A DNA stretch of 64,000 nucleotides from Ephemerocybe angulata (lineage: Eukaryota; Basidiomycota; Agaricomycetes; Agaricales; Psathyrellaceae), in contig JAACJK010000068.1 in assembly GCA_013368325.1 (NCBI GenBank), forward strand, positions 186,001 through 250,000, written 5' to 3'. This document shows positions 23,365 to 51,068 of this stretch, piece after piece; within the stretch, counting starts at the first letter, position 1, and every line of letters begins with the position of its first letter. The position numbers and the translations under genes were made by a program. Under the pieces are notes generated by a model. It saw nothing but the letters and a program-made list of their open reading frames with translations, made no database searches and was not told the DNA's origin.

Positions 23365-23431
23365 CAGGTCTCTCAGTCACTATGCGCATGGAGTATGGGG
23401 AAACTGGGTCGGAGTGTGTCCCATCCAAAAT

Positions 23432-23450
23432 AGGAAACCTGGGCCCAGCT
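23432..23450 (+). repeat. Left subterminal motif of the 20.8-kb element
   Basis: AGGAAACCTGGGCCCAGCT is matched in inverted orientation at 44094-44111 (17 of 18 bases) at the same distance from the element end. Degenerate relatives (GGCCCCAGCTGGCC near 23477) cluster around it. Subterminal repeats of this kind are often transposase-binding sites. Confidence 0.7.
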
Positions 23451-23810
23451 AGGTGATGGCGGTACCAGTGATGATGGCCCCAGCTGGCCCCTGGCACCAT
23501 ATGGGGCAGTTTAATCAGCTCTTAGTCCGTGGACTTGACCGAGACCTGACCCTATTTTCGATCTAGCCATTGCAGATATATTTGAGTGTTCAGCGGCGTG
23601 ATACGAGGACTACAAACTCAACGGTGACTACATTGGAACTACGGTTGGAGTCGTATGGATTCAGTCGGGACTCCGAGGCTTTGTGTTTCTAAAAATACCG
23701 CGCTACATAATCTGTCATCTTTGTTGATCCGAGGGTTGCTTGATCCGATAGTCGTCGGTCGGGCGGCGGATCTAGCTTGGACGCGACCTTTTTGCCTTCT
23801 TACATCTTCG

Positions 23811-25181
23811 ATGCCTCCTAGTGGACCTTCACAACTTCCTCGAGGGTTGAAGCGCTGTCAAGCCTACGCTGAATATGCTGCCTGTCTATTGGCAGAGCAC
23901 ACTGGGAAGGGGCCTCAGGTCGACGCTACTTCAGCACCGTCGATCCCACTAGATATCAAATCGGAGCTAGAGTCGATGGTTAGAAGGGTGTATGAAGCCT
24001 GGCAGATCCGAGGTGAGTGGACTCACAAAGGCTTCAACTACTTTACTCTAATTCAACAGTCCCACTCCCTTACTCCCTCGACGATGTGCAAAAAGCCTTG
24101 CGCACCACCCGCTTGGGCCAAACCCGCAATGAACATCTACGCCAGACCTTCGGCTCAAGCTTCGACCGGATGGGCGACGGGGGATATAAGCTTGTGGATA
24201 GCCCGGCAGTGTATATTGACCAAGACGATCGCGTTATCGCGTGGTACCTTCCGGACGTGTTCACCCGACGTCGCTCTGTACGTACCTCCGATTGAAGTGT
24301 CGACCTGACTCGGACGAGCGTCTTGACCGAAACAATTTCAGGAACAAGTCTACAATGCTACGAAGGAGTCGGTCGATCACCCCAAGCTCTTTCGAATCCC
24401 GCGTTCCCGAAATAAATGGCGCGACTGCCACGAGCATTTTGCCAATCCTGAGAGATGCGAGATTCCTCCTGCCAACACAGATATCAGTATATGTTGGTAC
24501 AACCAAGGCTTCGGCGTACGTATCGGCTTCACGAGTTTCCTCCCAGAGAGTCGGACTCACGCTTTAAAACAGCCGCATAACTCCCTTCCGACTCCCTCGG
24601 CCAATCTCAAGCACTCCGGCGCTGGTGGCCTTCATTTTCTTGAGCTACTGGAGGACACCAACGCGTTAATAGGCACCCTTCTCTCCCTCATCCACCCTGA
24701 ATTGTATGCCCAGCAAATGGCCGTTCTTCTCGAGTTGGAAGCCGGCCATGCGAAGGTCGGAGACCGGGACCTCATGGCTCGTGCCTTTACCGCGTGGGCA
24801 ACGCCCTTCACGGGTTTCTCTGTCATCGCCAATCGGGAGACTGTCTTCCACAGAGACAACAAGGGCGGCCAGACCTTATTTGACCTGGTGGCATCGTTCG
24901 GCCGATATCGACACGGTCGCTTTGAGGTGCCTTTGCTCGGGGCTAGATTTATCTATGATCCAGGATGCGCCTTGGTGTTTCCTGGTTACCTGTTGGAACA
25001 CGGTGCTAGTAGGACGGAAGGCGAAAGGATATGCATTGCTAGTTTCTTTAAGCCGGCAGTCGGCCACGGAGCGTTACCCGGTCAATACCAGGAGTTCGGT
25101 CCTCCGACCGTGGAGCACCTCAAAGTGATACACGGTTTGTCGACGGCTCACTCCTTGTACGCGCAAAGTATCTGGGATTAG
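23811..25181 (+). CDS. TET/JBP family 2-oxoglutarate/Fe(II) dioxygenase
   Basis: Four exons (23811-24012, 24060-24277, 24342-24515, 24573-25181) join in phase to 400 aa. The start MPPSGPSQ is preferred, although the frame is open upstream to 23655. The C-terminal double-stranded beta-helix shows GFSVIANRETVFHRD with the Fe-binding H-x-D (about residues 291 and 293), a distal His in YLLEHGAS (about 341) and the 2-oxoglutarate-binding Arg in GERIC (about 350). The surrounding blocks FDLVASFG, GRFEVPLLGARF and ASFFKPAVGHG fit the fungal TET/JBP family. Such enzymes oxidise 5-methylcytosine in DNA. All catalytic residues are present, so the protein is probably active. It lies at the left end of the element, transcribed inward, and fits the known KDZ-TET/JBP association. 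Confidence 0.87.
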
Positions 25182-25198
25182 ACTACCTATAACAACAC

Positions 25199-25891
25199 CT
25201 ATTCCAGCTCTGGATTACGGCCACCCGCCAAATAGAATTTGTTGAACTTTTCCAGCCTTCTGGACGCGCCTCTAGCCCCGTTTGCGATGACCTCCCCAAC
25301 CTCTGATAAGCCTGTCGTGTAAACGTCGATGGACTCCATTAGCTTCTCCATGCAACGGGTCGTCCTATCCAATAGCTCATCAGATCTGTCTTTTGGCCAC
25401 CGAACCAGATGCAGCCAATCCATTGTGAATTGGCGGAACACCTCGATAGGCGCGGCCGGGCGCTCATCGTCCCACCACCGATCCACCGGGAACACTATGT
25501 CATTGGCTTTCCCTTCGTCTACCAAAAGCTCCCCGCTTGTCATGACCTTCCATAGAGTGTCGGTGGAACCCAAGATAGGGAGAAGATGTCGAACTAAATC
25601 TGCAGCCACAGGCTTGTTTTCGACCCGGTGCCAATCAAGCATGCCAACTTTCATCCCTTCTAGCCTCGCTACGACGTTCTGAATAGGCGAAGATGAAGGT
25701 GAGATACATTAATATACGGAAAGTGTATCTCTGCTTACTATTTCATTATGAAGCATCTCAATATAGGTATGGTTCGGCTTCGCCGGATCCTCCCTTAGGA
25801 GAGACTGAAAGAACGCCTGTCGACGTTGGAGGAGGAAGAGATCGAGCAAGCCCCACTGCTCTGGCGTGATCATGTCTTGGGTTGTCCGCAT
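25199..25891 (-). CDS. Unknown 210-aa cargo protein
   Basis: Two exons (25739-25891 and 25199-25678) with an in-phase 60-nt intron encode 210 aa starting MRTTQDMITPEQ. I recognise no domain. The protein has no signal peptide or membrane span; it is rich in Trp/Arg/Glu helical segments (VDRWWDDERP, DWLHLVRWPKD). It is convergent with the TET/JBP gene, with only 17 bp between stop codons, and lies downstream of the 285-aa gene on the same strand. It is open and well spliced, so likely real; function unknown. Confidence 0.65.
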
Positions 25892-26056
25892 TGCAAAGGG
25901 CGATGACCGTGAAGGCGGGGGCGGGACAGGGGCGGGATGGGAGTCGAAGGCAGAAAGGAAATCAGATCAAATCAACTCAAGCCTCAAGAGATCGCGTTCT
26001 ACAGTCGCATCGAAAATGATCCCATTAAATAACATTAAGACACCTATGTACCGTAT

Positions 26057-26967
26057 TCACCGCCTTCCAGCCCCACCCGACCCCTTAGTTTCCTGCTTAG
26101 ATCCGGACTCTTCTGCTGCTTTCAGAAGCTGGGCCTCTTTCTCCTGAAGCGCCTTCTCTTCCAGATCTTTGAAGTCAATAAGCATGGCTTCAATGCCCGC
26201 GACGGACTTGATGATTCGAGCGAGATGCCAAGCGGTCACCGAGACCTCATTGTCCACCTCCTGGATCGCCTCCTTCGTCAGGGCATGTGCCTCGTCGATA
26301 TCGCTTATAGACATCTTGCCCAGTTGGAAGATGTCGTAGGCGGGTAGTACAAATGCACGCGGTACGTTCTTCCGCTCCGCTTGCCAATACTGGTAAAGCA
26401 ACGCTTGAGTTGGTTGATCTTCGTCGACGACGTTCTGGGGATGCTTGAAGTCGGACCACCAGTTCCCGCCATACGCGGGGAGTAGGGCGTCTTCTTGGTC
26501 CGGGCATGTGGAGACGACATCGACGAGTGCATCGAACTCCGCCAAACGGTTAAAGATGAAGAGTTTTGTAAGCTTTCGGAGGGCGTAGGGGGAATGGAGT
26601 CGATCGTTGTACAGGAGGCACCCTAAACCCAGGAAATACATGGCGGCAGCCTATTGTAATGGTCACTAAATATTTCCGAGCTTATCTCGAGAACAACACT
26701 CACCATTTCCTCCTTCATACGGGTTTTGAAAGCCTCCACCCCTTCGAAAGTCAAAGTTGAAGACTTTGAGATGAACGCCACGGCGATAGCGCGCACCCGA
26801 CTCGAGCAGTAGTTCAGGAACGCTTGGTAGGTCTCAGCGCTCATTTCACCAAAGTTCTCCTGGATCCATCCTCGATCCATGTTCTCCATGTCGGTCTGAG
26901 TATGTCGGTGGAATGGTGGTTGCGGACGAAAATGTTCAAACCGACGCAGAAAATGCCCATCAATCAT
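26057..26967 (-). CDS. Unknown 285-aa cargo protein next to the transposase
   Basis: Two exons (26704-26967 and 26057-26650) give 285 aa starting MIDGHFLRRFEHF. It is predicted soluble and helical, with a Glu/Lys-rich coiled-coil-like C-terminus (KDLEEKALQEKEAQLL). Its ATG lies 15 bp beyond the stop codon of the transposase gene on the same strand. It could therefore be an overlapping transcription unit or, with an alternative splice across the stop, a C-terminal extension of the transposase. I recognise no family. Confidence 0.6.
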
Positions 26968-26982
26968 TCTAAACTCCTAACC

Positions 26983-29900
26983 CTAGATGATATCCAACGG
27001 AACTATAACCTTCGAAACCTCGCTGAACTTTAGCTTAGCATTCCTCCCAACCCTTCTCCACATGTCCGCTTGCCTAAGGGCGTATGCGGTATGCCCCGGG
27101 GAGAGACCATTCGGTGCCCATTGCATCGCTAGGTTCCTAGAGTAAGCTGCAAATCGTACAAACCATTCCATCTCAGATTCGACCATTATAAGCTCTTCCG
27201 CCCATCGGTCACGCCTGGAGCGCGCTCGGATCCAACTGACCCGATATACTGGCAAATCAAATCAGAATAACAAGTCAAGGGGGAGCAAAGATGAGCCCAC
27301 TCACGTTCCTCCACGTACCCGGCAGTCCTACGGGTGCCTTTCACTTTCCAAATCCAAGATAGTTCCTCCTCGCGTTGATCCCGAGCGTTTGGGTCGTACA
27401 CCGCAGTAACCGCCTTCGTGTCGGCCGGTGTTATCTCTTCAAACTCAGGATAATTCTGCAACACGTTGAGCCGCTTTAGTGCCCAGACGGCGGAGTCGTA
27501 GACCTTGATGTGCAGGCGAAGCGAACGGGATATCTCGTTCAGAGTCGCATAACTCCTCGTTCGTCCTTCTTGGCCTTGAGCATGCCTCTTCTTCTTTCTC
27601 CACTCGAACGATTTTCGGGCGATGTCTTTCCGGATAGCTTCTAGAGCTTCGTTAGCCTGCGCAACCCTCAGCCCAACTTCAGCAGCTGCAACGTCGTCCC
27701 AACCCTCCGGTAGATCATCGAAGCTGGAGGGAAGGGGAAGAGCGACGTTCTCTTCGTCGAGGATAGCGCTCTCCTTCGGAGGTAGAGCAGGATGATCACA
27801 GTCGCATTCGTCTTCCTCGCAGAGGCAGAAGTTCCGCTCAACGGGTCTTCGGCGATTCTTCTTCGGAAGTTTAACGCCTTTCCAGAGCTTTGACGCCTGC
27901 GCATTCAACTCGTTGATATGCGTCATGAGGGAGGCCCGCTTCTTCTCGACCTCGAGACCGAACTTCACCTCAGGGTTCCCTTTTGGTGTTTTGAAGGCTT
28001 TCACGCCCCCAAAGATAAACGAACGGACGTGTAATCTAGTACTTAGTTAGAGTTAGCCATTCTCAAAATGCCGAGGATTCTTACTGTTGTTCCTGTATTT
28101 CAATAGCTCGAGCGACCCACTTGATAGAGTCCGGCCGGCGCTTATCTTTTCGAGCCGACCCCAATAGCCTTGTTTGGGCCTCCAACTTCCCTTCGACTTT
28201 CGTTACCACGCCCATCAGAATGCCGGCCGATGGAAGGAAGAGCCCGGATATGCGCACCTGGAACCACAACAGCGTTGTATACGTCCATGGCCTCGACATG
28301 CTTGGACCGGCGCTTATTGGCTTTGGCCATCTGTTTCAGCCAGCGCTTCTGTTGACGCTTGCTCGCCGTACTGTTCAAGTTATCGAAGTCTTCGGCCGAC
28401 TCTTTCGCGTGTTTGGTCGCCTTCGCATGTTGCTTGTTGAGATAGGCGACTATATATCTGTCAGTATGACCGTTCCACGTTGGTAGGTGCGCTACGAACC
28501 CATCCCTTGCAGCTTTCGCCAGTTGCTGTCTCTCATACTGGCGTCTAGAGTCTCTGCCCGGTGGGCGAGCGTCATTTGCCTCGTCATATCCGCCACGCCA
28601 TTCATTGTCGACCACAAGGATTCGAGGATCTCGCCGCTGGCTACCCCTGCGCCTGGGCAGAATGTAGGAGCAAACCTGGAAAGACATTCGCTCTTGTGCC
28701 CGTGAACATGGAAGAGGCCGATGAGAAATTGCATCTCCATGTCCGCGGGTAGGCCGGGGTAGTCTCCTGCCGCCACCCTTTGTCGGAAGTTAACGCAGTA
28801 TTGGCAGTTAACATCGTAAGCGAAGCGAGTCCCTGGTGTCTTGTTGGCCTGGGTGGTGATGGAGGCTTCATTTAGAGCCAAGTCAATATTTATCTGCCTG
28901 ATGGTACGTATAAGTTTCGTGTTCGCCTGCGCCCCGGCCGATGCGACCAACAACGTTCGCCCGACCCTCGGCCGTAGCTTGAAGTAATCGGACGTACCTT
29001 TCGCCCTTCTGCATGTCCACGGCGGACCCAGGGGCGAAGCAGCCGTGTCGTGCACATGCGATCGCAACCATTCCAGAACAGTCGTGGCCTTTCTTTGATT
29101 TATTCTTGTCCTTCGTGGCCCGGTGCTGTAGACATGTCGGTTCCTTGGCAAATCCATAAGTGACCCGGACCTTAGCTGTTATGAGGGACAAGCTTACTTG
29201 ATATATTTCCTTCGTCGTCTTCAAGTACCGGGCGAGTTTCGCGTTCTCCACAACATAGCCCGCCCCGTCGGTAAGCCATACTATCCTTTCCTCTCCCCGA
29301 ATCTCGATGTGGTTAAGAACGAAGTTACCATCGGCCGTGAGGTATCGCCAGTACTTCCACCTTGAAGCCATTAAGAATTGAAGTTGGGCTCGGCCGAGGG
29401 TTCGGGGGAAGACTTACCCGAGCTCATCGGACTTCCAGTCAGGAGGAAGATTAATCCCTGGTTGTGGACATACGGGACAGAAGGTGGCCAGTTCCCCAAG
29501 CTTAGGCTTCCTCAGTTGCTCGTGAACTCCAAAGCCCTTCCGTTTCAATTCGGTGAGGTAATTCCACTGCTGCCACGCTCGGGCTAGTTCCCTTGCTCGG
29601 TCCTAAGGAGAAAGACACTGGGTAAGTACGGACGCGACTCCAAACCTAAAGACTCACAGGGACTTCGTCGGGAAAGATGTAGTTCGTCAACCTCCTAAGC
29701 ATATGCGTGTATGCCTCGGCCGAGACATGCCCATGGATCTTCGACAAATGGAAATCTCGAAGTTGTTGAAAGGTAAAGGCGGTATTCGTTTCTTCCGATG
29801 TCACTGGATAGAGCCCCATTTTGAGCAGGTCGATATCCTTTTTCTCGTCGGGACAAAGGCACCGAAAGACGGGGAGATGGTGGATTCCGTTGGTATGCAT

Positions 29901-30745
29901 GATCGTCATTATGAGATCCTTCCCCACCGTACCTGCAGGGGGGGCATGACCAAAAGAAGGATCGTCCGAGAAGTCGCTTGCCGATCGGTCGTCCATCCCA
30001 GTGAGCGTCAGAACCTGGGCTTCTAGGGCTTCCAGGGGCTCTTGATACTCAGGGCACGGCGCTCCACCATGCCCAAGGCACAATACCGTTCCCATTTGCC
30101 AAAGCCAGGCGGGTTCCCAATGCGCGCCAGTCCAGGCTTCAATCCGATGGAGGGGATTGGAACGATGGGTTTCGCGACAGCATACGCGACAAGTCCGGGG
30201 GGAGCCCATGCAGTCGAGGCAGCGGACGTCCGTTTCTCTCTTCCCACAGGAGCAAAGAGCTTGTCCGAGAGCCTCGCCCTGAAGAATAACATTAAGGTAG
30301 TCAGCCTGTTTGCCCTGGATCCACTCCTCCATGTATTGGTGCGTTGTCTAATTTGACTTCGGATTAGCCGATATCTCGCCTTGGGACGTAGGACGCTTAC
30401 CTTCCCCTCACTTGTTTGAGCTCCGTCGTGCATTTCAAAAGCCTTATAGTTGAACGATTCCTCCTCTTCATCCGAATCCGAATCCGAAGGCAGATAAGAT
30501 GGACCGAAGTCCGGGTCTTCATCCCACAGTCGCTCGGCAGGGTGCGAGTTTTCGGGCTCGGGATCGGCGGTCTTGGGCACGGGGGCGTTATTGGGCAAGG
30601 CGTTATTGGGCAAACTCGGCTTGGATGGATGGACATCGGAAACGCGGGGTACAAGGCGCGTCTTTTCGCCTCGGGTTATTTGGGTCGTGATAACCACATG
30701 CTCCACACACCCGTCGGGAGCTATAGTGAACTTTCTGGGCGCCAT
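26983..30745 (-). CDS. KDZ (Kyakuja-Dileera-Zisupton) transposase with CxC2 cluster
   Basis: Nine exons (30401-30745, 29658-30347, 29418-29602, 28998-29360, 28496-28897, 28258-28457, 28085-28196, 27305-28035, 26983-27248) join in consistent phases to 1,097 aa with no internal stop. The start is MAPRKFTI. A CxC2-type cysteine cluster lies near residues 150-175 (CSC...CLDC...CRVCC, then NPLHRIEAW). Next come ELATFCPVCPQPGINLP, YLTADGNF, CARHGCFAP with MQKGER, the RNase H-fold core with FAYDVNCQY, FHVHGHKSEC and GEILESLW, a second Cys-rich patch (CLCEEDECDCD) and the ARSRRDRWAEEL end. These are hallmarks of KDZ transposases, which cut and paste DNA elements. The donor of exon 5 and acceptor of exon 7 are the least certain splice sites. 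It looks complete and potentially active. Confidence 0.88.
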
Positions 30746-30918
30746 GTGGTATTTTAGACGAACGAGGGAGGGCGCTGGGGGGATAATCTGACCCCCGGGC
30801 ATTCTGCATCAGCCTTTAAATGCGTTCAGCTGAATATTTCAATATTTCAGACGCCGACTTTGGTGATCGTTCAATCTTCGCCCTTCTCCTATCATCGTGC
30901 TTCATCGTCCCACCGCAA
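30746..30918. promoter_or_regulatory. Divergent promoter between transposase and HMG-like gene
   Basis: Only 173 bp separate the two start codons, so the transposase and the 904-aa protein probably share a bidirectional control region. The short sequence AATATTTCAATATTTCAG (30834-30851) is a tandem AT-rich element in its centre. Confidence 0.5.
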
Positions 30919-33853
30919 ATGACATCCCCAAGTCCTACTCCTCCTCCTCCTAGCAAATCACGACCTGTGTCCTCGTCCTCTTCACCGAAGTCAGGACCAG
31001 CTGCTCCCCTTCCTGATGAGCCCAGCCCGAAGAAAGAAGAGGACGTCGAGGATGAGGCCAACGCTGATTTGCCGCCCAACACAGCGATGGTTACGATCGA
31101 GACCGACAAGTCCCTGGATAAGCGCTTCACGCGAGCGCAGCTCGCATACATGAACGCCCGTAGGCAGGAATACCTACATGCCACAATTAAGAAACGGTCG
31201 GCAGTTACACGCTCAGTGGGTACTCACCTCCTCGACGAGAAAAAGTTGGATGGAAAGTCCATCTCACCGAAGGACCGGACCGCATTCTTGGCTGTGAGTT
31301 CATTCTATTCGTATCGCCTCTGTCCCTACTTATCATTTTGTTCAGAACGTTCGGCTTTGGTTTGCCCAGAGAGCTCGGAGGCGTAAGAAACTACCTCGTT
31401 GGGCAGTAAAGTGGAATGGACGCCAGATTTTCTATAAGGAGAACGTGGAAGAAATCTCTGAGACGCAGCGAGAGTTGTATGAAGCGAAGACCGGCATCAC
31501 GGGATCAGCAGATCCGGGGACGGGCCGGAGCAAGGGGGATGGCTTTGACCTTGATTTGGCTGGCGAGTCGGACGCCGACGTCGATGAGGAATCCACGTCC
31601 CAGCAAGATCCTTCGCGGGCCCCAAAGCCCTTCGATTTTCTTCAACTTGCCATTAGCAGGCATTGGTACGACCTGACTGAGGAGGAAAAGTCGGCATATG
31701 AGCAAAAGGCGCTGGTATGGAGGGAAAAAGGGCCTACATCGGACGAGAAGAAGCAGTATGTTCCGCACCTACCTCCTATTCCAATCTAACTCACAATGTC
31801 CCCCCAGACTCGCCGAGAAGGAAGTCGCCCACTACTGCCGTCAATTTGCGAAGGATATGTACAACCAAATGGGCGTCCGATTGTTCATGCTCGTGAGTTA
31901 CGAGGACACTGCGGGTACAATGATAGGATGTACGTATCACTTTCGATATAAGGGTCCCACTTTTTGAACTTCGGATGTGAACAGCGATGGTCGATTTCAA
32001 TGCGGAGCTAGGTGCTGGAAAGTCCTTTTTGAAGGATGCACGGGGCCCGATAACGAGGTCAGGTCTCTTTAGACGGTGGTGCGAGTACTCGCGCGTTCAG
32101 AATCCCAAGGCAACCGGAGACGACCTTCCGAAGGGCGGGAACCTCCTCCCCCTCCCTCTCAATGACTACGGAGAGCCCATCCTCCCCGACATCTCGCAAC
32201 CGACTCCCACCGGGACCCCTCCATACGTCTACAAGCAGAAGCTTATCCGCAGTTTCGTCACTCGTTGTTATTGTGAGTTACCAGTCTGTTCTCGTTTGAG
32301 GTTTCGGGCTGAAGGCGATTCTTATTGTTGTAGCCATCTCTCGCGGTGTCCCCCTCATCGGCAACGAGGTTAGCAAACGCCTTGCACCGCCTTGGAAGGC
32401 AATCGCCAAAAATCCCCGCCTCTTCATCTCCAAGGAGCACCTATCGGATGAGCTAGCTACTCACCTCGACGAGACCAACTCCATCCGTATTCAACACTCG
32501 ACGGCGATGTTGGCGCACTGGTGGGAGCGCCAGAATGCGGGACTGGTCGCCTTGGAGTTTCATTCTTATCTCGGTGACAACGGGGAAATGCTTCCACGTA
32601 CCCCACGTGCACCGTTGGCCCAAGAGGTCTATGAGGAGGTCATGAATCAGCCCATTGCAGCGAAGCAGAAACGAACCACCAAAATGAAGAAAGGGAAGAA
32701 AGGGAAGGAAGCGTGGACTTCATCGTCCGACGAAGCTTCGTCTAGCGAATCCGGCTCTGAGGATAGTCCAACAGACCCCGGGCTCAGCCTCTCGGATGGA
32801 CCTGCCGAAACGGATGACGATCACGACGATCTTGACCTTGCCGAAAAAGAAGATGAGAAGAACGAAAAGGAGAGGAAGGCTGAGGAGAAACGGGAGAAAG
32901 AACGGGTAGCGAGGGAGGCAAAGGCGTTGAAGGCCCGGCAGAAAAGGGAAAGAGATCGAAAGGCGAGGGAGACGTTATTGGAGGCGAAGGAGAAGGAGGC
33001 GGCGAAAGCGGAGGCAGAGGCCAAGGCCAAGGCCAAGGAGGAGGAGGATAGGAAGGCGAAGGCGAAGGAGGAGGAACAGGCGAAAGCAGAGGCGGCGAAA
33101 GCAGAGAGGAAGGCGAAAGCGAAGGCCAAGGCGGCCGACAAGGCAAAGGCTAAGGAGGAGGAGGAGACGAAGGCTAAGGAGGAGGCGGATAGGAAGGAGA
33201 AGGCGAAAGCCAAGGCTGAGGCGGATAGGAAGGATAAGGCGAAGGCAAAGGCAAAGGCGGATGCAGATAGGAAGGCCAAGGCCAAGGTGGACGCGGATGC
33301 AGATACGAAGGCCAAGGCCAAGGCGGATGCGGAGAGGAAGACGAGGGGGAAGGCGAAGGATAAGGATAAGGAGGAGCCGGAGAGGAAGACGAGGGGGAAG
33401 GCGAAGGAGAAGGAGGAGGAAGAGCCGGAGGATGTCGATGATGTCTCAATGGATGTCGAGAGCGACGAAGTCGATATACCGCGCTCCAAAGGACGACCGA
33501 GACCGAAGCCCCTCCACAAGAAGGCAGATAAGGATAAGGAGGAGCCGGAGAGGAAGACGAGGGGGAAGGCGAAGGAGAAGGAGGAGGAGGAGCCGGAGGA
33601 TGTCGATGATGTCTCAGTGGATGTCGAGAGCGACGAAGTCGATATACCGCGCTCCAAAGGACGCCCGAGACCGAAGCCCCTCCACAAGAAGGCAGCTCTT
33701 GAGACGTACCCTGAAACACCGACCAAGAAAATCACTGACTCGCTCAGAGGTGTTACTTTAGGATCAGCTCAACGTCAGAAGCAAGAACCGGAGCCCTCAC
33801 CTTCCAAGCGATCATCTCGTGTTCGAAAGCCTACACAACCATGGACTTGGTGA
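30919..33853 (+). CDS. 904-aa HMG-box-like, highly charged protein (cargo)
   Basis: Five exons (30919-31293, 31346-31755, 31808-31929, 31985-32272, 32334-33853) agree in phase and give 904 aa. A Pro/Ser-rich N-terminus is followed by a segment with WYDLTEEEKSAYEQKA, which looks like the last helix of an HMG box. A conserved middle region includes HYCRQFAKDMYNQMGVRLF, GLFRRWCEYSR and SKRLAPPWKAI. The last 450 residues are a Lys/Ala/Glu low-complexity tract with a 56-residue unit repeated twice (168-bp tandem duplication), ending in basic KRSSRVRKP. I know similar proteins beside fungal KDZ loci, but I assign HMG only tentatively. A chromatin or DNA-binding role is inferred. Confidence 0.75.
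33359..33694 (+). repeat. 168-bp coding tandem duplication
   Basis: Two nearly identical 168-bp (56-codon) units, 33359-33526 and 33527-33694, lie inside the 904-aa gene. Each includes ERKTRGKAKEKEEE and DVESDEVDIPRSKGRPR. The unit length is a multiple of three, so the frame is kept; the near identity indicates a recent duplication. Confidence 0.9.
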
Positions 33854-34030
33854 TTAATTGTGCACTTCTGTTTTGTACTTAGCTTATTCAAACTGTCATC
33901 CGACTAAATATCTGTCCGAATGCCCTCGCCCGAGTGGTCGATCTGTCCGAACCGTCCGAACACCCGTCCGAGTGTGCACGATACCGACTTGTACCAAAGC
34001 ATGTACCAGAGTTCATTCCGTCCGAACACT

Positions 34031-34180
34031 CGTCCGAGATCGTCGCCCGAGGGTCCTGTACAGCAATTACCTCCAACGCTCGTCCGAGATCGTCGCCCGA
34101 TGGTCTTGTACAGCGACTACCTCCAACGCTCGTCCGAGATCGTCGCCCGAGGCTCTACAATACCGACTTACACCAACTTC
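34031..34180. repeat. 50-bp minisatellite
   Basis: Units 34031-34080 and 34081-34130 differ by a few bases and are followed by a partial third unit; each begins CGTCCGAGATCGTCGCCCGA. Related CGTCCGA words extend from about 33905 to 34220. It lies between the 3' ends of two convergent cargo genes, and the 410-bp gap 33854-34263 holds nothing else I can support. Confidence 0.85.
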
Positions 34181-34263
34181 AAAAGAAATATTCGTCCGAG
34201 ATCTTCGTCCGAGGGTCCACAATGCTAACTTCCATCCTGAATAGACATGTATTCGGCCGCAGA

Positions 34264-35286
34264 CTAACGAGTTCCTAAGAGCTGCTTACGAGCTTCAAAG
34301 TTCAACATATTGGGACACCTGGGATTCCAGCACCTTCGCGACGTTCTCCAACGAAGTAAATCCGACCTCCACAAGTTCCACTCATCCTCTGCCTGGCCCC
34401 GCCGAGCCCACTGTCCCTGCACCCCACTTGACCATTCCTCGACCTCGAGCCCAGGATCGTCGTACGACTTCCTCCAAACGCCGGGACAATAGACACCACA
34501 TGGTCGAGTCCAGTGACTGTTGTCATTGGTCACTAGAAACTTGGGCGGTCGGTCATACGGCCCTGGCTGACGGACATAGTCCTCGACTGCCAAACTTTCG
34601 TTTGAAGCTACGAGCCTTGGGTAAAACAAACCAATGGTTCGATTGGTGATCGCGTTCATCTGAGCGGTGTGAGGGGTTCCGAGCACAACAGCCATCGCGT
34701 CTTCCTTGCTGACAATCACAGAGATATATGTGGTCTGGAGAGGAGGGTCAGAGGAGAATGGGAAGTTAGGATCGATTGCTCACTTGGACGCCATCCATTC
34801 TCTCAAATTCCTCAACCATAGCAGCAGTCCCCGTATTCTTATACCGAGAAACGTGGCCTATGCTTGAGCTGTATCCGAGGTCTGAGAGAAACGTATGCAT
34901 CGGATCTTCGAAATTGCGTGAAACGACGATGTTGAGGTCAAATGGGGCCGGAATGGAGACGGACGACTGCGAAAGGAGAACCTTCACCCATGGGTTGAGC
35001 GTTAGTTCAGATGATGGCGAAGCAGGAGACGCACCTGTCGCACCACTGACCCGATTACTGCTCCTTTTGAGTCCCCCAGAGTTGCAAAGAAGGCGGGTAT
35101 TTTGTCCCTCGGAATGAACGGTTCCAAAGCATCGTAAATCCGCGATCGAATCTCAAATTTGCAAACTTTAGCTGTGGGAGCAGGACCTCTTGCCAGGGTG
35201 ATCAGATGGGCCCAAGGGATGTAGCGAACGAGGAGCGGGAGCAAGTCGACTTTGAGAAGGGTAGGGATAGAGAAAGGAGCTTCCAT
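34264..35286 (-). CDS. Nucleotidyltransferase-like fungal family protein (cargo)
   Basis: Three exons (35035-35286, 34784-34966, 34264-34734) with in-phase introns give 301 aa. The N-terminus (LLPLLVRYIPWAHL) is followed by FFATLGDSKGAVIGSVV, then after the intron APFDLNIVVS and FLSDLGYSS. This resembles a large family in Agaricomycetes in which a GSxAL-type strand is followed by a DLDIYV-like motif, a layout reminiscent of nucleotidyltransferase folds. Here the motifs are weakened (GSVV, DLNIVV), so catalytic activity is doubtful. Its role in the element is unknown. Family membership is recalled, not searched. Confidence 0.6.
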
Positions 35287-35421
35287 TGCGAATAAAGAGG
35301 GAGACAAGGTGTAAAGAATATTTATTCCCACCCTTGATGGGCTTTTAGGGGCAGTAACGGATGCAAATTGATTGCATGTTCCCATACGGAGTCCTCAACA
35401 TAGCTGGTGCGAGCCGAGCCT

Positions 35422-36127
35422 TCAGTCAAAGTCAGAAGAACAACGTGATAATCCATACCTTTGCAAGAGGCTTTCGATATGGTGGAGATCTCTCTCGAGG
35501 ACATCCTGTACTTGGCCCGTTTTGCGATTACTTTTGACCACCACTACATTTCCATACACGGCTCTCGTCAAGTACCCGACTTTGAGCGTGTCGTAAAGCC
35601 GGTTACGAGGGGGGGCGGGAGAAACCTAGAAAAAATGGTTATCAGTGCAATCTCGTATGACGATCTGAGATACGAACTTGTCTAGAACGGAAGATAGTCC
35701 ATGTAAAGATCATATCTCGACTGGCGTGAGGAGGCCATCGTTGTAGGGCGGCACCATCATCGGCCACAGGCCACAGGCCAACCCTTTCCAGGGCAGGTGG
35801 ATTGAGATACACGTCGACGTCAAGGTCAACGTTTCGCGGCGTCGCCTCGTAACCTGGGTGAATCGCGACAGGGAGAAGAAGGGGCTCAGACGCTTCTGCA
35901 CCGAAGACACAGCAGACAACGGTGGAGATAAGTCCTGCCTACAAAAAAACGGCTTAGTTTCCAACGAGGCATTAGCTGGGAGAGGACATGGGGCCCACCT
36001 TCCGCGCTGCAGCTATCGAGTTGCCGGACGTCTCCAAGGCCTCGCGTGTGTACATGAGGAGCACCGGTATTGTTGAAGTATTCGTAAAGAATGGAGGTGG
36101 ACAAGGGAAGGAAAGCAACTCGACCAT
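35422..36127 (-). CDS. Unknown 197-aa conserved fungal protein (cargo)
   Basis: Three exons (35999-36127, 35678-35938, 35422-35625) are in phase and give 197 aa. It starts MVELLSFPCPPPFF and contains AAARKAGLISTVVCC, a DLDVDVYLNPP segment, GLWPVADDG and, near the end, GYLTRAVYGNVVVVKSN. There is no signal peptide or membrane span and no named domain that I recognise. It is co-oriented with its neighbours on both sides, 135 bp upstream of the nucleotidyltransferase-like gene. The clean splicing and well-formed globular sequence support a real gene. Confidence 0.6.
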
Positions 36128-36220
36128 GGTATCAGTCTGATTACGTACGCGTGCTTATTAAATTGCATATGGGCGCTAAAGGGTTTTTGACCGGCGTTAA
36201 ACATACAATGGTATCGACTG

Positions 36221-39200
36221 TTAGGTAGAAGGGGGAAGTGAAGATAAAGGAGAGCCAAAGGGGCTGAGGGTACCGACGCTACTCGAAGCGGTGGAGCCAT
36301 GAGCGGCGACAATAGACAAAGGTTGTTCACCTTCCTTAGATCTTTTCCCCTCCTTCATCCGGTTTCTCAGCAAGGCAGCACTGATTGACCGATCTTCATC
36401 CATGTCCGGGGGGCAGGCTTGTTGGGACCCAGTGGAGAAGGCCGAATAGAGAGATTGAGACTGGGACGACGAGTGAGAAGCCCCTTGCACGGCCGACTGC
36501 ACGGCCGGAGTCCCTGCAATCGACTGCACGGCCGATCTTACCTGACCCCCCAAAGATACGGCCGTCTGGAGAGAGCTTACGGCCGGAGTGTCTTCCAGTA
36601 AGGAACAAACCACTTGGTGAGATAGTGGGGCCGTGTAGTCTTGATCGACTACGGCCGTATCATCGGCCGGGACAGCGGAAGCACCCTTGGGGCAGTATCA
36701 GCTGTGTTGGTTACTTCAAGTTAAGAGAACTTACAAGGTGAGATTCAACGGGCGTAGCTTGCTCGGCCGACCCGTCGGTGGGGCGTGCGGACGAAGTCTT
36801 CTTCATCGGGTCAGTGTCGGCGGTCGGGCGGGCGGACGATGCGGACGAAGTCTTCTTCGTCGGGTCAGTGTCGGTGGTCGGGCGGGCGGACGATGCGGAC
36901 GAAGTCTTCTTCGTCGGGTCAGTGTCGGTGGTCGGGCGGGCGGACGATGCGGACGAAGTCTTCTTCGTCGGGTCAGTGTCGGTGGTCGGGCGGGCGGACG
37001 ATGCGGACGAAGTCTTCTTCGTTGGGTCAGTGTAGGTGGTTGGGCGGGCGGACGAAGTCGTCGGGTCAGGTTGGGCGGTTGGGCGGGCGGACGAAGTCGT
37101 CGGGTCAGGTTGGGCGGTTGGGCGGGCGGACGAAGTTGTCGGGTCAGTCTGGGCTGCCCCTTGGGCCATGTTGGATACACTGGCTGTGTGGATAGCCGGT
37201 TCAACGGCCGTACCCTCGGCCGGAGAGGTGGACGAACCCTTCCGATCGACGCCCTCAGGCTCCGTCGGTTGGGCTCCCTGTTGCTCGAATGGCTAGCATA
37301 AGGGGAGGGTCAGATTAGTATCATAGGATGGGATATAGTGGGCTTACCATCTGACCGGCGCCCACGAAGTTGGCATCCATCATAGTGGGGATTTCTGGGA
37401 GGTCGCCAAAGTAGCTTTGGAGGGTATTCTCAACGTCTCGAGAAATGGTGCGCGTTTGATGCTCAATCCATTCTCGCGCGCGGCCACCATAGTCAAAGGA
37501 TAGCCACTCCACCGTATCCTTCAGTGTCGTCTGTATCTTCGCCTCCACCGATTGGTCCATTTCAGCCAACGTGGGGGCGAGCCGTTCCTGAACTGCTCTT
37601 GCGATGTCCTCCGTACTTGGGTTCCTGGCAATCGAGCTCCCTACCGCCTTCTTCAACTTGACCTCCACCCGCTTCTCAACCATTTCAACTGACTCCTTGA
37701 CGGATTCCCTAACAGTCACACCGAGCGCAGGGTTGATCCCATCCATCCTATCTTCCAACTTTCGCAGTGTCTCCTTCATACCCGTCTCCAGATCGTCGAT
37801 TTTATCTTCAAGCCGGTCGTCCAACTTCGCCGCTACTGCAGCAACACCTCGTTGGAACCTTTCTTCCATGACTTCAGCGATCTCCTCCATCCTCGTCCCG
37901 ATCATGTCCTTAACCCGGGTCGCGATCGACTCTCCCATCTCCTCGATTCTGCTCTCCATCTTCTGCATAAGCGCGTTCACCATGGAGTCCCCCATTTCGT
38001 TGAGCTTCTCATCCAAGGAGGTGGCGATGACATCCAAGGCATGGGAGTCGTCGCCCGTCTCCCCCGCTCCCTTCAACTGTGTTAGCTCCTCATCCACCTT
38101 CTTCAACTGTTTGTCCATCCCCGATATCCGCCGTGCCTGGTTGAGCGTGACCTGTCCCAGAGCATTCGCTATCGCCAAATCGGCCTCATTCACCCAACGA
38201 ACGAAGCTTGCAGGCGAGCCTGTGACGAGCTCAGCAACGCTCCGTGGGCTTGGATTGCCGGTAGGCTTAAAGCCATGGGCTTGCGGTCGAGCGACCGATG
38301 ATGGCGACTGCGAGACGAGGGAGGCAACGGTTTGTCGGAGTTGAGGCAGGTCGCGACATTCACGGGTGAGAGCGCTGGTACAGCCTTGAACCTCGTTGAG
38401 CTTGGAGGTAAGTACCTGCGACTTCTCCTGGAGCACAGCTACCTCCGGCCGAAGACTGCTTGATAGTTCTCCTTCATGCGCAGAACGCACGGTCGTCGGC
38501 TTCGGCGGTGCGCGGGGTTGGGGGAGCTTGAAGCTTCTCTGATGGTACAGGATGAGCAAGTTTCGCTGTGATCTGATGATTCACGTACTGGTGCTTCCGA
38601 CTTTCGGGCGGCCGTCCCCTGTACGGCCGAGGCCTTCCCTTGATCTTCGGGGAGGGGATTGTTGAATTGATTCTGTTACCAGGTTAGAGATTATATACGC
38701 ATCGTCAACTTACCTCTTGAGCACGCACCTCATAGTCAGAGTCGATTATGGCCACGGACTTCTTTTGTTGCTTGTTCTTGGCCTTCGCAACATTCGTCTT
38801 CGGGCCTGTCGTCCTTGGTTCGAAGGGAGATCCAAGGCGGGAATGCGAGGATGAGGCGGTCCGCCTTGATGTCGCGGGCGCAGGTCGCGCAATTGACTCC
38901 TCAGGCTCTACGTCCTCTTCCTTCACGTCCTGATCTGGATCCTTTCTAACCCCTGTCGCGTGACTACAGCGAATCTTGGAGGAGAAACAACCGGTGCAAG
39001 CGTTGCCGGGTCTCTTGTCAATCCTGCACTTCTTGTTGGTTTTGAGGCACTTGATGCACCCAGGGATGTAGAACACTCCATCGTTCGGTGGAATCACGAA
39101 GTCAGAGTGGGCAGGAAGAGTCGGGTGCTCGGACTTGACGCGCTTCTTGGGCTTGGGGGGATCTTCAACAGGCGCCCTTGCGTCCGACACTTCATCGTCT

Positions 39201-40228
39201 GAAGGAGGCGCGGATGGTGTTCGCTTTCGCTTGACCTTGCCAGATCGCGTAGGTTGGGCCGTGGTTTCCTTTCTCAATCCACCGTTCTTCGACTTCTTCA
39301 GCTCCTCCTGCTCGGCGGCCCATTCATCAACGTCCATTCTCTCCTCGACGTCCTCTCTACTCTTTCCGTTCGACTTGGTCGGGCGCTTGCCTTCCCTCCC
39401 CCGTGGCTTCTCGACGTCCTCTCTACTCTTTTCGTTCGACTTGGTCGGGCGCTTGCCTTCGCTCCCCCGTGGCTTCTCGCCCTCCCTCCCCTTCCTGATC
39501 GGTTGCGGACCTGGCTTCCGACCGTTTGCCTTCGGTTCCCTGGGCTTGTTCCATTTGAGGAGTTGAACCTCGTCCTCGTCCGAATCGCTAACTTCTAGCA
39601 CTTCCGGGGCCTGGACCTGTCTTTTGACGACTGGAGCCTGCCTTTCCTCCTTTTCCTGGCGCTCCGGAGGGCGGAGCGCTCCCTTCCCTTCGCGGCCTCC
39701 TTGATCTGCAGGTTTGGCCTTGGACGCTGCTTCGGGTTTACGTACCCCGGTGCGCGTGCGCGAACGCTCCGACGGTTCATCCAGCCCTCCCTCCTCCGAC
39801 ACCGGGTCCTTGTTGTCATCGTCCTTGGTGTCATCCTGGCCATTCGTTTCGGATTCTCGTGGAATGAACGGGTATTTTTGAAACGGGGTTAGATCAAGAG
39901 GTGCGTTGGGGTCCGTAAGGTACTCGGGGTGTGCTTGGAAAGATCTCGACCATGCGATGAAGGCTTTCGATCTTTGGAACGAGTCGCGTCCATATATTTT
40001 GAACCCCAGGGCCAGTGAGATCTGGTGGTTAATGGTAAGTACAAACTACATGTCGCGATTTCAGACACTGACCGTCCGCGCAGTCAGCTCCCTTCGAAGT
40101 TGTACCAGATTGTACGACTCGTCCCATGTCGGGGCTTCGATAAGCAGTTCCTCGACGTCGGTTAGGAGGTCTAACATGGCTTGATAGGAAGTAGGGGCAG
40201 CAGGGGCAGCAGGGGCAGTCATGGCCAT
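36221..40228 (-). CDS. Zn2Cys6-type, coiled-coil and repeat protein (cargo)
   Basis: The model is 40073-40228, 38714-40021, 37348-38538, 36735-37292 and 36221-36685; all phases agree, giving about 1,225 aa. The intron at 38539-38713 is long (175 nt) and could hide another exon. Exon 1 is short and Ala/Pro-rich. Exon 2 has a basic region and, near residue 370, C-x2-C-x6-C-x9-C-x2-C-x6-C, the spacing of a fungal binuclear zinc cluster, which normally binds DNA. Exon 3 is a long helical coiled coil (about 400 residues of Glu/Met/Lys-rich heptads). Exon 4 carries Thr/Ser/Pro-rich tandem repeats, and exon 5 is low complexity. The cysteine spacing is diagnostic, but the long disordered context is unlike a standard regulator. 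It may be two genes. Confidence 0.65.
36784..37150. repeat. 54-bp and 39-bp coding tandem repeats
   Basis: About five units of 54 bp (18 codons, minus strand: TSSASSARPTTDTDPTKK) at 36784-37035 are followed by about three units of 39 bp (13 codons, TTSSARPTAQPDP) to about 37150. The units share the core SSARPT, so one arose from the other. They lie inside the zinc-cluster gene and keep its frame. Confidence 0.85.
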
Positions 40229-40460
40229 TGGGTGGATGGGTTCAGGTGCGAAGGGGCGGGAGCAAGATACCTTCAATCGGGCGCGGGTGGGATGTAAGTT
40301 TTGAGACGGATGTGCACATGCGGACTTCCGAGGTCCTCGATCTCGGCCAGTCGATCACATGAGCGTGTTAAGACTAAGCGATCGCGATCGAACTTCAAAA
40401 ACTGGATGCCGTTTCTCCGCGAACGACGCTGGCCCCTTACTCTCAACTCTCATTTCTGCA

Positions 40461-41566
40461 ATGCTCAGTGGACCAAAGCCAAAGACAAAATCAAGGCCTT
40501 CCCTTTCTGCGGCGCTCCGGAACTCGAAGCGTCGAAGTTGTGCGTGATTGTTCTACTGCCTCTGGTGTCTGGGCTTATCCTTGCACATTAGTTCTTCGGA
40601 AGGTGTCTACCCCCTCTGCTGCGAAGAGACAATTTGGGCTGTCGGCCAAGGCATTACCTGTCGGTACGTGGTGTCTCTCTATATCGTGATGCGGCATTGA
40701 AACCTCGTCAAGAAGGTGACGCTGAGTGGGGCGGCACTGGAGATGGTGCTGGGACTCTTGAAGCGTCCTGGGCGGCCCTAAACGGGGAAGACCTCTTTAA
40801 CTCGTTGGCTTCCCAAGAAAGCTCGAATAAGTCGCCCCGCGACGTCGTAAACACAGTCGGCATGTCTCCCCCGACGCTCTCACTCGATCTTAGTCCCCTG
40901 AAACCTTACCTTCTTAGATGCCGGTGCCGTGGAAAAAGACGAGGACCATGAAATGGCCACCCCGACTGCCGGCACCTCCGGCGAAAGCCTAAACCCAATC
41001 GGTACGTCTCCGCTGACCCTGTTATCCGACCTCCATCACACTGAACCTCACTCTACTTAGATGTCGATGCCGCCGAGGTCCGTGACCAGTCAAAGACCAC
41101 CACGACCGCCGGTACCGGCGCAGCTCTTGAACTTCCGCTCTCCGACCCGACCCCTGGGGGCAAGAAGATCTTTAGCATTTTCCACAATCATGCGGTTGAG
41201 GTCGGTAAACAGCTAGAGGCTAATGTGGAGGCGGTTGAGGGGGAGGCGAAGAAGGAGGGGATCTTGGCGATGGAGTCGACCACCCCACTCGTCATGAAGG
41301 TTACATGGGACCTCCACTCCCTCGATACGATCGCGGTCGGCCGTGGGGCTTTGGAGAGTCATCTCTCTGATCTTCTCTGGTTCAAGGCACGTTTGATCAC
41401 GCACCATCGCAACGCCGTTCGAACTCGGTACAACCTCCAGAAGGTGTTACAGGCCATATCTCGGGTGCGGTATTTAGAGTCGAGGGTGGAGGACTTATCC
41501 GGCGGCATCTTGCGCGAGGGTAAACGGGAGGGCGAGGATAAACAGGAGGGCCCGGCCGATAAGTAG
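40461..41566 (+). CDS. Unknown 294-aa cargo protein with duplicated exon-intron units
   Basis: Five exons (40461-40539, 40592-40663, 40716-40859, 40918-41001, 41061-41566) give 294 aa starting MLSGPKPKTKSRPS. Introns 2-4 all begin directly after a ...TCG codon and are in phase 1. Introns 3 and 4 are similar in sequence and both are followed by a DAGAVE/DVDAAE-like start, so an exon-intron unit was probably duplicated. Intron 3 fits only with a GC donor (GCATGT). The C-terminal 130 residues are helical (HDLHS-like WDLHSLDTIAVGRGALESHL, then RYNLQKVLQAISRVRYLE). No family recognised. It is divergent from the zinc-cluster gene, 232 bp between starts. Confidence 0.62.
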
Positions 41567-43322
41567 TCCTTTTCGTTGTATAGAGTTGAATGCAATGCTT
41601 TTGTCCTTGTTAAATTGATATATACGAGGATTGTATTTTATGGAGTAGAGGTTAGCAGACTTCGGGCACGGTCGCCCGGGGCGAGCTACAGATCGTGCCA
41701 GCATCACCGAACTCTGGCGTTTCGCAGCCTCCGTTACTTACTTAATCTCTTGCTAACGTCGTCGTCGTCATCATCTATCAACAGAGTGCGCAGTCGTCGT
41801 CGAGGTGTTGTTCTCTTTTATGGCGTCTATTTGCACAGGCACTCCGAGGTATGTAAAGCTCCACCACTTCTTGACCACTTCATTCAATGCACCCTCTTCT
41901 TACTTATTCCTGTTCGATGTTTTGGAAGGGAAGTTTCTCGATATTATTAACCTCGTTGTTTTTGGCCTGGCAGATAGATAGATAGACGGATGGATAGACG
42001 GATGGATGTATATGGATGCCGGGGGATTGGCGCTCGACCGACTGGGCTCGTGGAGATGTTAGTATACCCGCACTGCCTCGTCCCATCGTGGAGCCACGTA
42101 TTTATGTATGTCCTCCCTTGTGCATGCGCGCGCGTTCTGGGCGTCTATTTGAGCGCTTGAGGGGGGGGGTTCAAATTGATGGCTAATCCAAGAGGTGCGA
42201 GGTGTACCGTGTGAGGCATGGTGCGCCTGGGCCTGGGTTCGAGGTTGTAGGGAGCCTGAAATGACTAACAGTGGTAGGTTCCTTTGTCCTTTCATAATAC
42301 TAACGGGCGTCTCCCAACTAGCGGCCGACCTCTCGTCGGCAACGGAACGGCCGACCTCTCGTCCGCAACGGAACGGCCGACCTCTCGTCCGAGGGGCGCT
42401 TCTTGAGACACGGCCGCCGCCTGTATGTTCGGCGGCCGAGGTCGGCCGCTCCGACTGGGTTTCGCCCGTCTACTCTCCTGGGATGGCTACTGGGAATCCG
42501 GGTCGTCCTGATGACTTTCCTGTTGGTTTTACCCCACTCGCCTTCCAATAGGTACTGTAGAGCAGTGTCGGTTCACAATAGAAATAGCTGCATCGAATGT
42601 CCTGAGCAAGCAGAAAGAGTAAGACGGTTGAGCATAATATGCGAGAAGGGCATAGGACGCAAGAACGTGAACAGATAAATGAGCAACTGGGACACGGTCA
42701 TGTTTAAACACCCAGGTTCAACGGGATGCTGCGACAACCTCTGGGCGACGGTGTTGCTAAACTAGTAATATTTTGTTCAGATTCTACCAGCCTTCTTCAG
42801 TGCTCATGGGTATCAAGCAGCGAGCACTCGAGGTTTACTGCTAGTGTGACCAAGGATTTGCGGGGGCTGTTTCACTCGCTGGACGCAATTACTACCCTGT
42901 GATCATGAAGAGCTATGTATTGATTGTCATTTGAATTTGACTACGTACCGCCCAATATTATCAGGAGCCTCGAGGAATGGATTCGGTCAAGGATTGGGTG
43001 TAACTTTCTCAGTGCTATTATTACCTACCACGCAATTCAATGTTAGTGAGCTCGTTAACAAATCCATTCAGGCTCGAAGTTTGTCAGGCCCTGTAGGACT
43101 GCGATGGTCAAGACGACTGGAAGTAGGATGGGTCTACCAAATGGCCAAATGGCCAAATTGGATTTGGAGGCGGGTGCATGGCCTCGGTCACGGTGCTTTG
43201 CTATAAGTTCTACGTAGATAGTGAATAACTCTAAAATAATTGCGCATTTCCTGAAGCAACGGAGGCGGAGTGAGAAGGATAGATATGCTTACTTGGCTCC
43301 CTGGCCTCCTCTATACACCGCA
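41567..43322. other. Non-coding part of the element, with a 26-bp tandem repeat
   Basis: No supported gene in 1.75 kb. A 26-bp unit starting CGGCCGACCTCTCGTC is repeated 2.7 times at 42322-42392. Short (GATA/GATG)-type runs lie near 41970-42010. Confidence 0.6.
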
Positions 43323-43725
43323 ATGCTGAGCCTGGGAGCCCGCAGTGGATCGCAGACTTCGGTCATCTCTATAAAAGACCCTGGCTCATTCCATGGCTCA
43401 CTCATACTCCAAGCCCCCTCCAAACCCGACAAAAAAGACGACCGAAGACACCCAGAGTTCCCCCCTGAGATTCTGGAGCAAGTCATTGAGTTCTACTTCG
43501 AAGGCCACGCCCCGTTCTCGCTTAGACTGCTTCACGATCACGTCAAGAACCTCCGCTTGTGCAGTCGCCTGTTCAACCAAACGGTACTTCGCTGTGTTCT
43601 CAGAACGATATCGATCTCCAGCTCTACACTCTGGCTCGGAGTTCTCAGCAACGGGTAAGGGAATAAAGGCATCACCGTGTATTAATGGCTTGTTTCCCAG
43701 CTTCGGGACTGTGGTAGTGGGGTAG
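43323..43725 (+). pseudogene. Short F-box-like fragment at the right end of the element
   Basis: An ORF starting MLSLGARSGSQ contains FPPEILEQVIEFYFEG followed by LRLCSRLFNQ, a recognisable F-box core of a different subfamily from the surrounding genes. With a 46-nt intron (about 43655-43700) it ends at TAG 43723-43725 after only about 118 residues, with no downstream repeat domain. It may be cargo captured in truncated form, or a small F-box protein. The stretch 43726-44180 has no gene and holds the subterminal repeats. Confidence 0.5.
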
Positions 43726-44093
43726 GTACATGGCCTCGGTTAGTGTGGATGGATACTCACTCTCGGGCAAAATCCCCCATTTCAGGAATCGGGGTATTCC
43801 TGCGTAGAACTGACTTTCGGGCGAGCGGGCGGCTATTAACCCGAGTGGATTGGGCCACGGCCGCAAATGTCGGACGACGCACGGCAGTAATGCTGGATTC
43901 GGGAACGCGGATCAGCACTGGATCAGCAGCCCATGATTTGGTACCATTTATAGGAGTATATCCCCACGCGCTACTCCGAGGCTGTGACATGCACAGCAAA
44001 TGCACAGCCACGTGAGCCCAGCTGGCCCATTAAGGCAAGGCCATCACGCGAGACCCAGTTTGGCCATCAGCATATCGTCATGCGGGGTGAGCC

Positions 44094-44111
44094 AGCTGGG
44101 GCCAGGTTTCC
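44094..44111 (-). repeat. Right subterminal motif of the 20.8-kb element
   Basis: AGCTGGGGCCAGGTTTCC is the inverted counterpart of 23432-23450. Related words (GGCCCAGGTGGCCCATTA near 44133, GAGCCCAGCTGGCCCATTA near 44015) repeat several times in the last 180 bp of the element. Confidence 0.7.
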
Positions 44112-44180
44112 CATCACGGACGGGTCATATGCAGGCCCAGGTGGCCCATTAGGGTAAGGTCATTGATGCGTCACTATGTG

Positions 44181-44187
44181 CAAGTTC
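44181..44187. repeat. Target-site duplication, right copy
   Basis: CAAGTTC, identical to 23358-23364. On the minus strand its codons (AAC TTG) are the last family-like codons before similarity stops. Confidence 0.8.
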
Positions 44188-50818: not shown

Positions 50819-51068
50819 CAAGAGTCGCCACTCGCAGCTCGCAGTTCGCTTCTGCGCCGCCCCAGACAGAGACCACTGCATGCTCTACCGCACTGATGGG
50901 CCCGATTATCTGGGTGCGGTATCCCCACCCCAAGCTGTTGAATCCATACAGAACGAGTTGGTAGGAGCGGGAATGAAGGTTGAGGTTGAGTGGTTTGTGC
51001 ATGAGTGGGGTGTGCCTGGCTACGATGAGCAACCTTCCGAGCAGGAGGAGGTTGAAGCGAAACAGTAG

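Follow-up and report, generated by a model that had tools for sequence, protein, structure and literature searches.

A TET+ Kyakuja-type KDZ transposon with exact boundaries in an F-box-like host gene of Ephemerocybe angulata

A linkage of KDZ transposases with TET/JBP dioxygenases and a divergent HMG protein is said to have been described by Iyer and colleagues in 2014. Here we present an element with the same TET/JBP, KDZ and HMG-like linkage, together with its complete ends and target site duplications (TSDs), at positions 23365-44180 (20,816 bp) of a 64,000-nucleotide (nt) stretch of Ephemerocybe angulata DNA; this whole stretch (C232:186001-250000) is referred to as the window, all coordinates given without a contig are positions in it, and the element under study is labelled the C232 copy. 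The closest described systems are the TET+ Kyakuja transposons of Agaricomycetes, for which the main-text passages of Kojima 2025 (PMC12730594) give 7-bp TSDs, CA..TG termini and no terminal inverted repeats (TIRs). The C232 copy is like them in its KDZ transposase, AG-type TET, 7-bp TSD, CA..TG ends and absence of TIRs, and unlike them in carrying six more genes and matched subterminal repeats: in those main-text passages genes 2 and 5-8 and the displaced repeat are unmentioned, and the main text contains neither the word "HMG" nor the word "cargo". Judged by its predicted domains, TSD, termini and type of TET, the element is of the TET+ Kyakuja type, and this kind of transposon is already known. 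Zisupton and Dileera, other KDZ branches of which some carry TET, share the KDZ domain but have 8-bp TSDs according to the same main-text passages (PMC12730594), in contrast to the 7 bp of the six copies described here. The 7-bp TSD and the KDZ domain also set the element apart from CACTA/EnSpm and Plavaka elements, with their 2-5 bp TSDs and CMC-type transposases. The giant Starship elements are characterized by a tyrosine-recombinase captain gene; a general Pfam scan of the eight element proteins found no tyrosine recombinase, and no search aimed at captain genes was made.

A single inserted element with exact boundaries

The interrupted host gene lies on the minus strand, with its 3' part at 21927-23357 and its 5' part, which has an F-box-like start (Pfam E 0.009, below the cut-off), at 44188-44576. 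Between each part and the element stands one copy of the TSD CAAGTTC (left copy 23358-23364; right copy 44181-44187). Several paralogues of the host gene are present within the window itself, and alignment of the joined flanks with at least six uninterrupted paralogues (those spanning the junction are L002, L004, L007 and window positions 59117-59505, 48930-48539 and 55975-56394) revealed an excess of 7 nt at the junction. This excess is the sole gap in the alignment with the best uninterrupted paralogue, L002 on C55 (91% identity); the alignments with L007 and with the window paralogues at 55975 and 59117 contain further gaps. The eighth base beside CAAGTTC is unequal between the two sides (T/G before, C/A after) and the duplication is therefore of 7 bp, not 8. 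The segment 23365-44180 is a single inserted element with exact boundaries. A preliminary description of this DNA had already placed the block between two halves of one host gene, with these ends and this target duplication, and had suggested looking for an empty site with one CAAGTTC; the joined-flank alignment establishes the ends exactly, and the uninterrupted paralogues, which lack the second CAAGTTC, provide the empty site.

Related copies and the structure of the ends

Searches within the 58.7-Mb genome that contains the window identified five other copies with homologous ends. Two were found by DNA similarity, at C125:610697-631266 (20,570 bp, TSD ACATCTC; the 20.6-kb C125 copy) and at C47:203576-242181 (38,606 bp, TSD CTTGTCG), the latter with about 7 and about 12 kb of additional sequence inside. 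The right end of the C232 copy matched C125:610697-610808 with 81% identity, aligned through the very last base, and C47:242006-242178 with 74% identity; the left end matched C125:631145-631259 with 76% identity. The joined flanks of the 20.6-kb C125 copy align without gaps to C133, C163, C165 and C161, each an empty site with one ACATCTC, and no match spanning the junction was found for the C47 copy. These two, the C232 copy and a copy on C37 are the four close copies referred to below; for the C37 copy, the right-end motif was absent from the interval searched (5001-45000), and gene 8 had no match on C37.

Three distant copies were found by their end motifs: C120:362224-381168 (TSD TTTCCTT), C125:3341806-3359837 (C125:3.34 Mb; TSD GAATATC) and C215:291485-311575 (TSD CTATTCC). 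Equal 7-mers were here sought beside CA and TG, meaning that the CA/TG ends were a condition of the search, and each distant copy offered 8-12 candidate pairs (10 in C120, 8 in C219, 12 in C125:3.34 Mb and 10 in C215), so that the 7-mer alone is no proof there. One candidate pair also has the end motifs in three of the four distant copies (C120, C125:3.34 Mb and C215), and a search for the left motif CAGGnnnnTCAGC, made independently of the 7-mer, led to the same three left ends. The six copies, C232 included, thus have six different perfect 7-bp duplications. Homologous ends and separate TSDs in five other copies, together with the paralogous empty sites, indicate that the block is mobile as a whole. 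This supports the preliminary description, which had supposed the same and proposed a search for further copies with these ends: the ends are shared, the TSDs are independent and the main genes lie beside the transposase.

The left tip (23365-23392, plus strand) reads CAGG....TCAGT where other copies have the motif CAGGnnnnTCAGC; the right tip (44153-44180, minus strand), similar among copies, reads CAC...TCAATGAC inward on its strand. The termini are CAGG..TGTG in the C232 copy, and CA..TG is found in the C125 and C47 copies as well. There are no TIRs at the tips, the first 28 bp being identical between the two ends at 7-11 of 28 positions in the seven copies compared. Further inward, left positions 28-90 match right positions 29-91 in inverted orientation, with a mean identity of 61% over these seven copies against a background mean of 25% (standard deviation 4.4) over all 138 offsets; this offset of +1 ranks first in six of the seven copies and third in C47. 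The two arms of the subterminal inverted repeat in the C232 copy (left arm 23393-23454, plus strand; right arm 44090-44151, minus strand) are 69% identical at that offset. When the repeats were aligned locally, the score was reached by none of 500 base shuffles in C232, C125, C47 and C120, by four in C125:3.34 Mb and by two in C215, where the highest-scoring local alignment is shifted out of register. Within a subfamily, left and right repeats match at 0.58-0.61, versus 0.46 between subfamilies, the subfamilies being those that we assigned for this comparison. The displaced inverted repeats are putative paired transposase-binding sites which would change together with the transposase, and the presence of such a matched repeat some 28 bp inward of each end is possibly a new feature.

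Genes of the element and their common history

Gene models were built with a small splice-aware predictor trained on open reading frames (ORFs) of the window and checked against the C125 copy. Counted from the left, the TET gene (rightward) is followed by gene 2 and the KDZ gene (both leftward), the HMG-like gene (rightward), genes 5, 6 and 7 (all leftward) and gene 8 (rightward); a full reading frame from start to stop was obtained for genes 1-4 and 7, and open models, with more than one choice of borders, for genes 5 and 8. Gene 1 (23811-25181, plus strand) encodes a TET/JBP dioxygenase of 400 amino acids (aa) in four exons without internal stop (Tet_JBP PF12851, E 9e-18), in agreement with the intact enzyme recognized earlier. 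Its best match among solved structures is CcTet of Coprinopsis cinerea (PDB 7vpn/8jkk, E 2e-28), and the closest TET protein is P0001, also from Ephemerocybe angulata. The stretch HRDNKGGQTLFD has the spacing of CcTET residues His326, Asp328, Gly331 and Asp337, as these are numbered in the main-text passages of PMC12730594; with this H-x-D and the equivalents of Gly331 and Asp337, gene 1 has the marks of an AG-type, CcTET-like enzyme. The Gly and Asp positions are kept in all six copies that have the whole stretch.

Gene 3 (26057-30745, minus strand) encodes a KDZ transposase with CxC2 (KDZ PF18758, E 8e-43; CxC2 PF18803, E 4.5e-18). The transposase is intact as first described, but its size had been given as 1,097 aa in nine exons, whereas the present model has 1,311 aa in 12 exons, again without internal stop. 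Gene 2 (25199-25873, minus strand; 204 aa, no Pfam hit) is present in the C47, C37 and C125 copies; our first prediction joined it to the KDZ gene, a fusion that was discarded, since the KDZ frame stops at 26057 and a separate start exists for gene 2. Gene 4 (30919-33853, plus strand; 896 aa, five exons) encodes an HMG-like protein with long charged C-terminal repeats, and gene 7 (36577-40228, minus strand; exon borders uncertain) a coiled-coil protein with a Zn2Cys6-like cluster. Both labels go back to the preliminary description and hold for excised pieces, with HMG_box_2 at E 0.0018 in 96 aa of gene 4 and Zn_clus at E 0.0009 in 68 aa of gene 7, but these values are below the Pfam cut-off, and the full-length proteins list neither HMG nor Zn2Cys6 at E 0.1; the Coprinellus homologue of gene 4, P0012, likewise has HMG_box_2 below the cut-off (E 0.003). 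Over the cut-off, Pfam gave no hit beyond the TET and KDZ proteins. Gene 5 (34264-35286, minus strand; about 301 aa, three exons, several border choices fitting) looks like a nucleotidyltransferase by eye, an identification now withdrawn, as neither Pfam nor PDB sequences gave a match. Gene 6 (35462-36055, minus strand; about 170 aa) has provisional borders and a provisional stop. Gene 8 (40461-41566, plus strand) probably encodes a coiled coil: the open 282-aa, five-exon model is one of 119 that fit, the annotated homologue P0013 has 246 aa, another Ephemerocybe angulata record (DFP72DRAFT_1069346) matches at 99%, and the AlphaFold prediction has two helices with a mean pLDDT of 58.9. Further genes thus accompany the TET and KDZ genes, six in number rather than the seven or so open ones first counted. 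No gene was predicted on either strand of the right end region (41567-44180). An open frame at 43218-43658 in that region resembles an F-box start by eye, has no Pfam hit and is perhaps a captured host fragment.

The same arrangement recurs in the genome. Loci were merged by hand from high-scoring segment pairs, giving 29 for TET, 27 for KDZ, 25 for the HMG-like gene and 19 for gene 8. A KDZ gene lies within 12 kb downstream of TET on the opposite strand (convergent) at 22 of the 29 TET loci, followed beyond KDZ by the HMG-like gene in 18 of these 22 and by gene 8 in 11. Among the 27 tallied KDZ loci, TET is found at 22 and the HMG-like gene at 21, in the same order; this tally comprises loci found with this transposase plus two Pfam-search loci near TET, while the Pfam search returned 170 KDZ matches in the genome, many at places that this transposase missed among the matches listed, and the tally is therefore biased and 22/27 no rate for all KDZ genes.

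Identities between copies, anchored on the query, correlate from gene to gene (TET-KDZ r 0.97; TET-HMG 0.93; KDZ-HMG 0.92; KDZ-gene 8 0.92; TET-gene 8 0.93) across C232, C47, C120, C219, C125:3.34 Mb and C215; the C37 and 20.6-kb C125 copies were excluded on account of their broken TET. Counting the observed arrangement, correlations as high arose in 2 to 7 of the 720 permutations. The four genes (TET, KDZ, HMG-like and gene 8) have diverged in parallel. The ratio of nonsynonymous to synonymous substitution rates (dN/dS) of the C232 copy against the C47, C37 and C125 copies is below 0.5 for all eight genes, although the values are rough since dS is near saturation in many comparisons: 0.08-0.10 for KDZ, 0.17 for TET (against C47), 0.12-0.15 for the first 546 codons of the HMG-like gene, 0.31-0.32 for gene 2, 0.18-0.22 for gene 5, 0.09-0.11 for gene 6, 0.33-0.44 for gene 7 and 0.15-0.20 for gene 8 (C47 and C125 only; shifted-frame controls above 1.3). 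These data suggest that TET has long belonged to this transposon lineage and is sometimes lost from it.

Among the accessory genes, 2 and 7 are clearly recognized in the four close copies; elsewhere, gene 2 has a marginal match in C120 (E 0.001), and no match to gene 7 was obtained at E 0.05 in C120, C125:3.34 Mb or C215. In these three copies the interval from the HMG-like gene to gene 8 contains, on the same strand, a frame of coiled-coil appearance, which was considered as a gene 7 homologue and rejected for want of such a match. Genes 5 and 6 had no match in C120 and C215, and C125:3.34 Mb gave one for gene 5 only, weak and stray (E 0.03); these two genes are possibly new for TET+ Kyakuja.

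Other arrangements of these genes were also observed. At ten places (C92, C93, C154, C185, C199, C200, C214:361 kb, C215:453 kb, C217 and C226) a linked pair of gene 5 and gene 6 relatives recurs together with a second, inverted relative of gene 5; most of these places have equal scores, and none has a KDZ within 12 kb among the matches listed. Another mobile family perhaps shares this pair with the TET+ element. At G000:C98:183640-186441 about 1.5 kb separates TET from a gene 8 relative of the same orientation, and no KDZ is listed between them; this is possibly an internally deleted element. The order of matches at G000:C117:1001863-1031386 suggests one TET+ KDZ element nested in another. 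Several TET-KDZ copies are near contig ends (C66:1-17 kb; C125:3.704-3.712 Mb of 3.713) and are perhaps subtelomeric.

The window contains traces of other mobile elements. Direct repeats of 1,465 bp (99.45% identity) at 10672-12136 and 14944-16408 enclose a Gag-like frame (CCHC knuckle, by eye), the only frame above 180 aa in 10601-15300; together they look like a young non-autonomous long terminal repeat retrotransposon. A foldback element at about 49874-50819, with arms of about 250 bp (95%), lies within a paralogue of the interrupted host gene and has CAAGAG on both sides by eye.

Proposed mode of action and alternative explanations

Very probably, as judged from sequence comparison, the C232 copy is a complete and probably autonomous cut-and-paste TET+ Kyakuja (KDZ) transposon inserted in an F-box-like host gene. 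In the proposed scheme, the KDZ transposase would recognize the conserved tips at both ends together with the subterminal inverted repeats, excise the element and join it to a staggered break, the fill-in of which would leave the observed 7-bp duplication. The TET enzyme of the element may oxidize 5-methylcytosine, and perhaps N6-methyladenine, on the element itself and so counter methylation-based silencing, and the transposase is probably assisted by the HMG-like and coiled-coil/zinc proteins, as DNA-bending or chromatin partners.

Several observations weigh against this scheme. C219 has both end motifs but unequal flanks, and seven of the 29 TET loci (C98, C117:995 kb, C18, C112, C189, C58 and C117:44 kb) are without a convergent KDZ. 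Stops occur within the matched stretches of KDZ (one each in C47 and C37) and of the HMG-like gene (one in C37), which may or may not fall in introns. CpG depletion, sought as a footprint of methylation in the element and in the window flanks, was not found (observed/expected 0.99 in the element, 0.94 and 1.01 in the flanks), so that there is no methylation footprint either way. TET is reduced to fragments in C37 (115 of 400 codons) and in C125 (123 of 400), where the other genes are conserved. Such losses, and the behaviour of genes 5 and 6, would fit a small KDZ transposon beside which neighbouring genes were captured later, the 20.8-kb block then not being one mobile unit. Outside the four close copies there are 25 gene 5 loci, of which 23 have gene 6 within 2 kb, mostly without a listed KDZ nearby; among the matches listed, KDZ is within 12 kb of one such pair (C146). 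A weak relative of gene 8 (28%, E 1e-5) lies about 10-16 kb from the pair on C32 and C115, and some pairs may therefore lie in other KDZ-like elements. The preliminary description had raised the case of cargo genes standing collinear without the transposase: in this genome the main genes do accompany KDZ, but genes 5 and 6 also pair elsewhere. We nevertheless consider later capture extremely improbable, given that it is the outer ends that carry the TSD and that these ends are common to other copies, in which the genes between them stand in the same order.

A dead or non-autonomous relic, mobilized by another KDZ copy and with genes open by chance, is the least improbable of the alternatives, though still unlikely. 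The 170 Pfam matches to KDZ would provide many candidate helpers, and a near-identical sister copy, sought in this genome with either end, was not found: the best end identity was about 81%, and no recent sister insertion is thus seen. On the other hand, the start-to-stop translation of genes 1-4 and 7, the open models of genes 5 and 8 and the dN/dS values of 0.08-0.44 are not what a relic would lead one to expect. A TET that is a host regulatory gene, merely near KDZ elements and serving the host genome, might be proposed from the main-text passages of Kojima 2025 (PMC12730594), according to which oxidized methylcytosine covers other transposons as well in C. cinerea; but the TET gene described here is inside a TSD-bounded element, is convergent with KDZ at most TET loci and has the same pattern of divergence as KDZ, and we regard a host gene as quite improbable. 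An autonomous multi-gene transposon therefore remains our preferred explanation of the C232 copy. For TET+ Kyakuja elements as a group we lean, with less assurance, towards multi-gene transposons in which TET, KDZ, the HMG-like gene and gene 8 would have been long inherited as a unit and whose ends would be two-part, with an asymmetric conserved 28-bp tip followed by a subfamily-specific displaced inverted repeat as matched transposase-binding sites.

If this is true, matched binding sites exist in elements that have been described as being without inverted repeats. The C232 copy provides a delimited reference element: its TSD, paralogous empty sites and gene models are available, and the same genome has five copies for comparison. 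Its end sequences, tips as well as displaced inverted repeats, now allow an excision assay to be designed, and likewise an experiment on the proposed anti-silencing role of TET.

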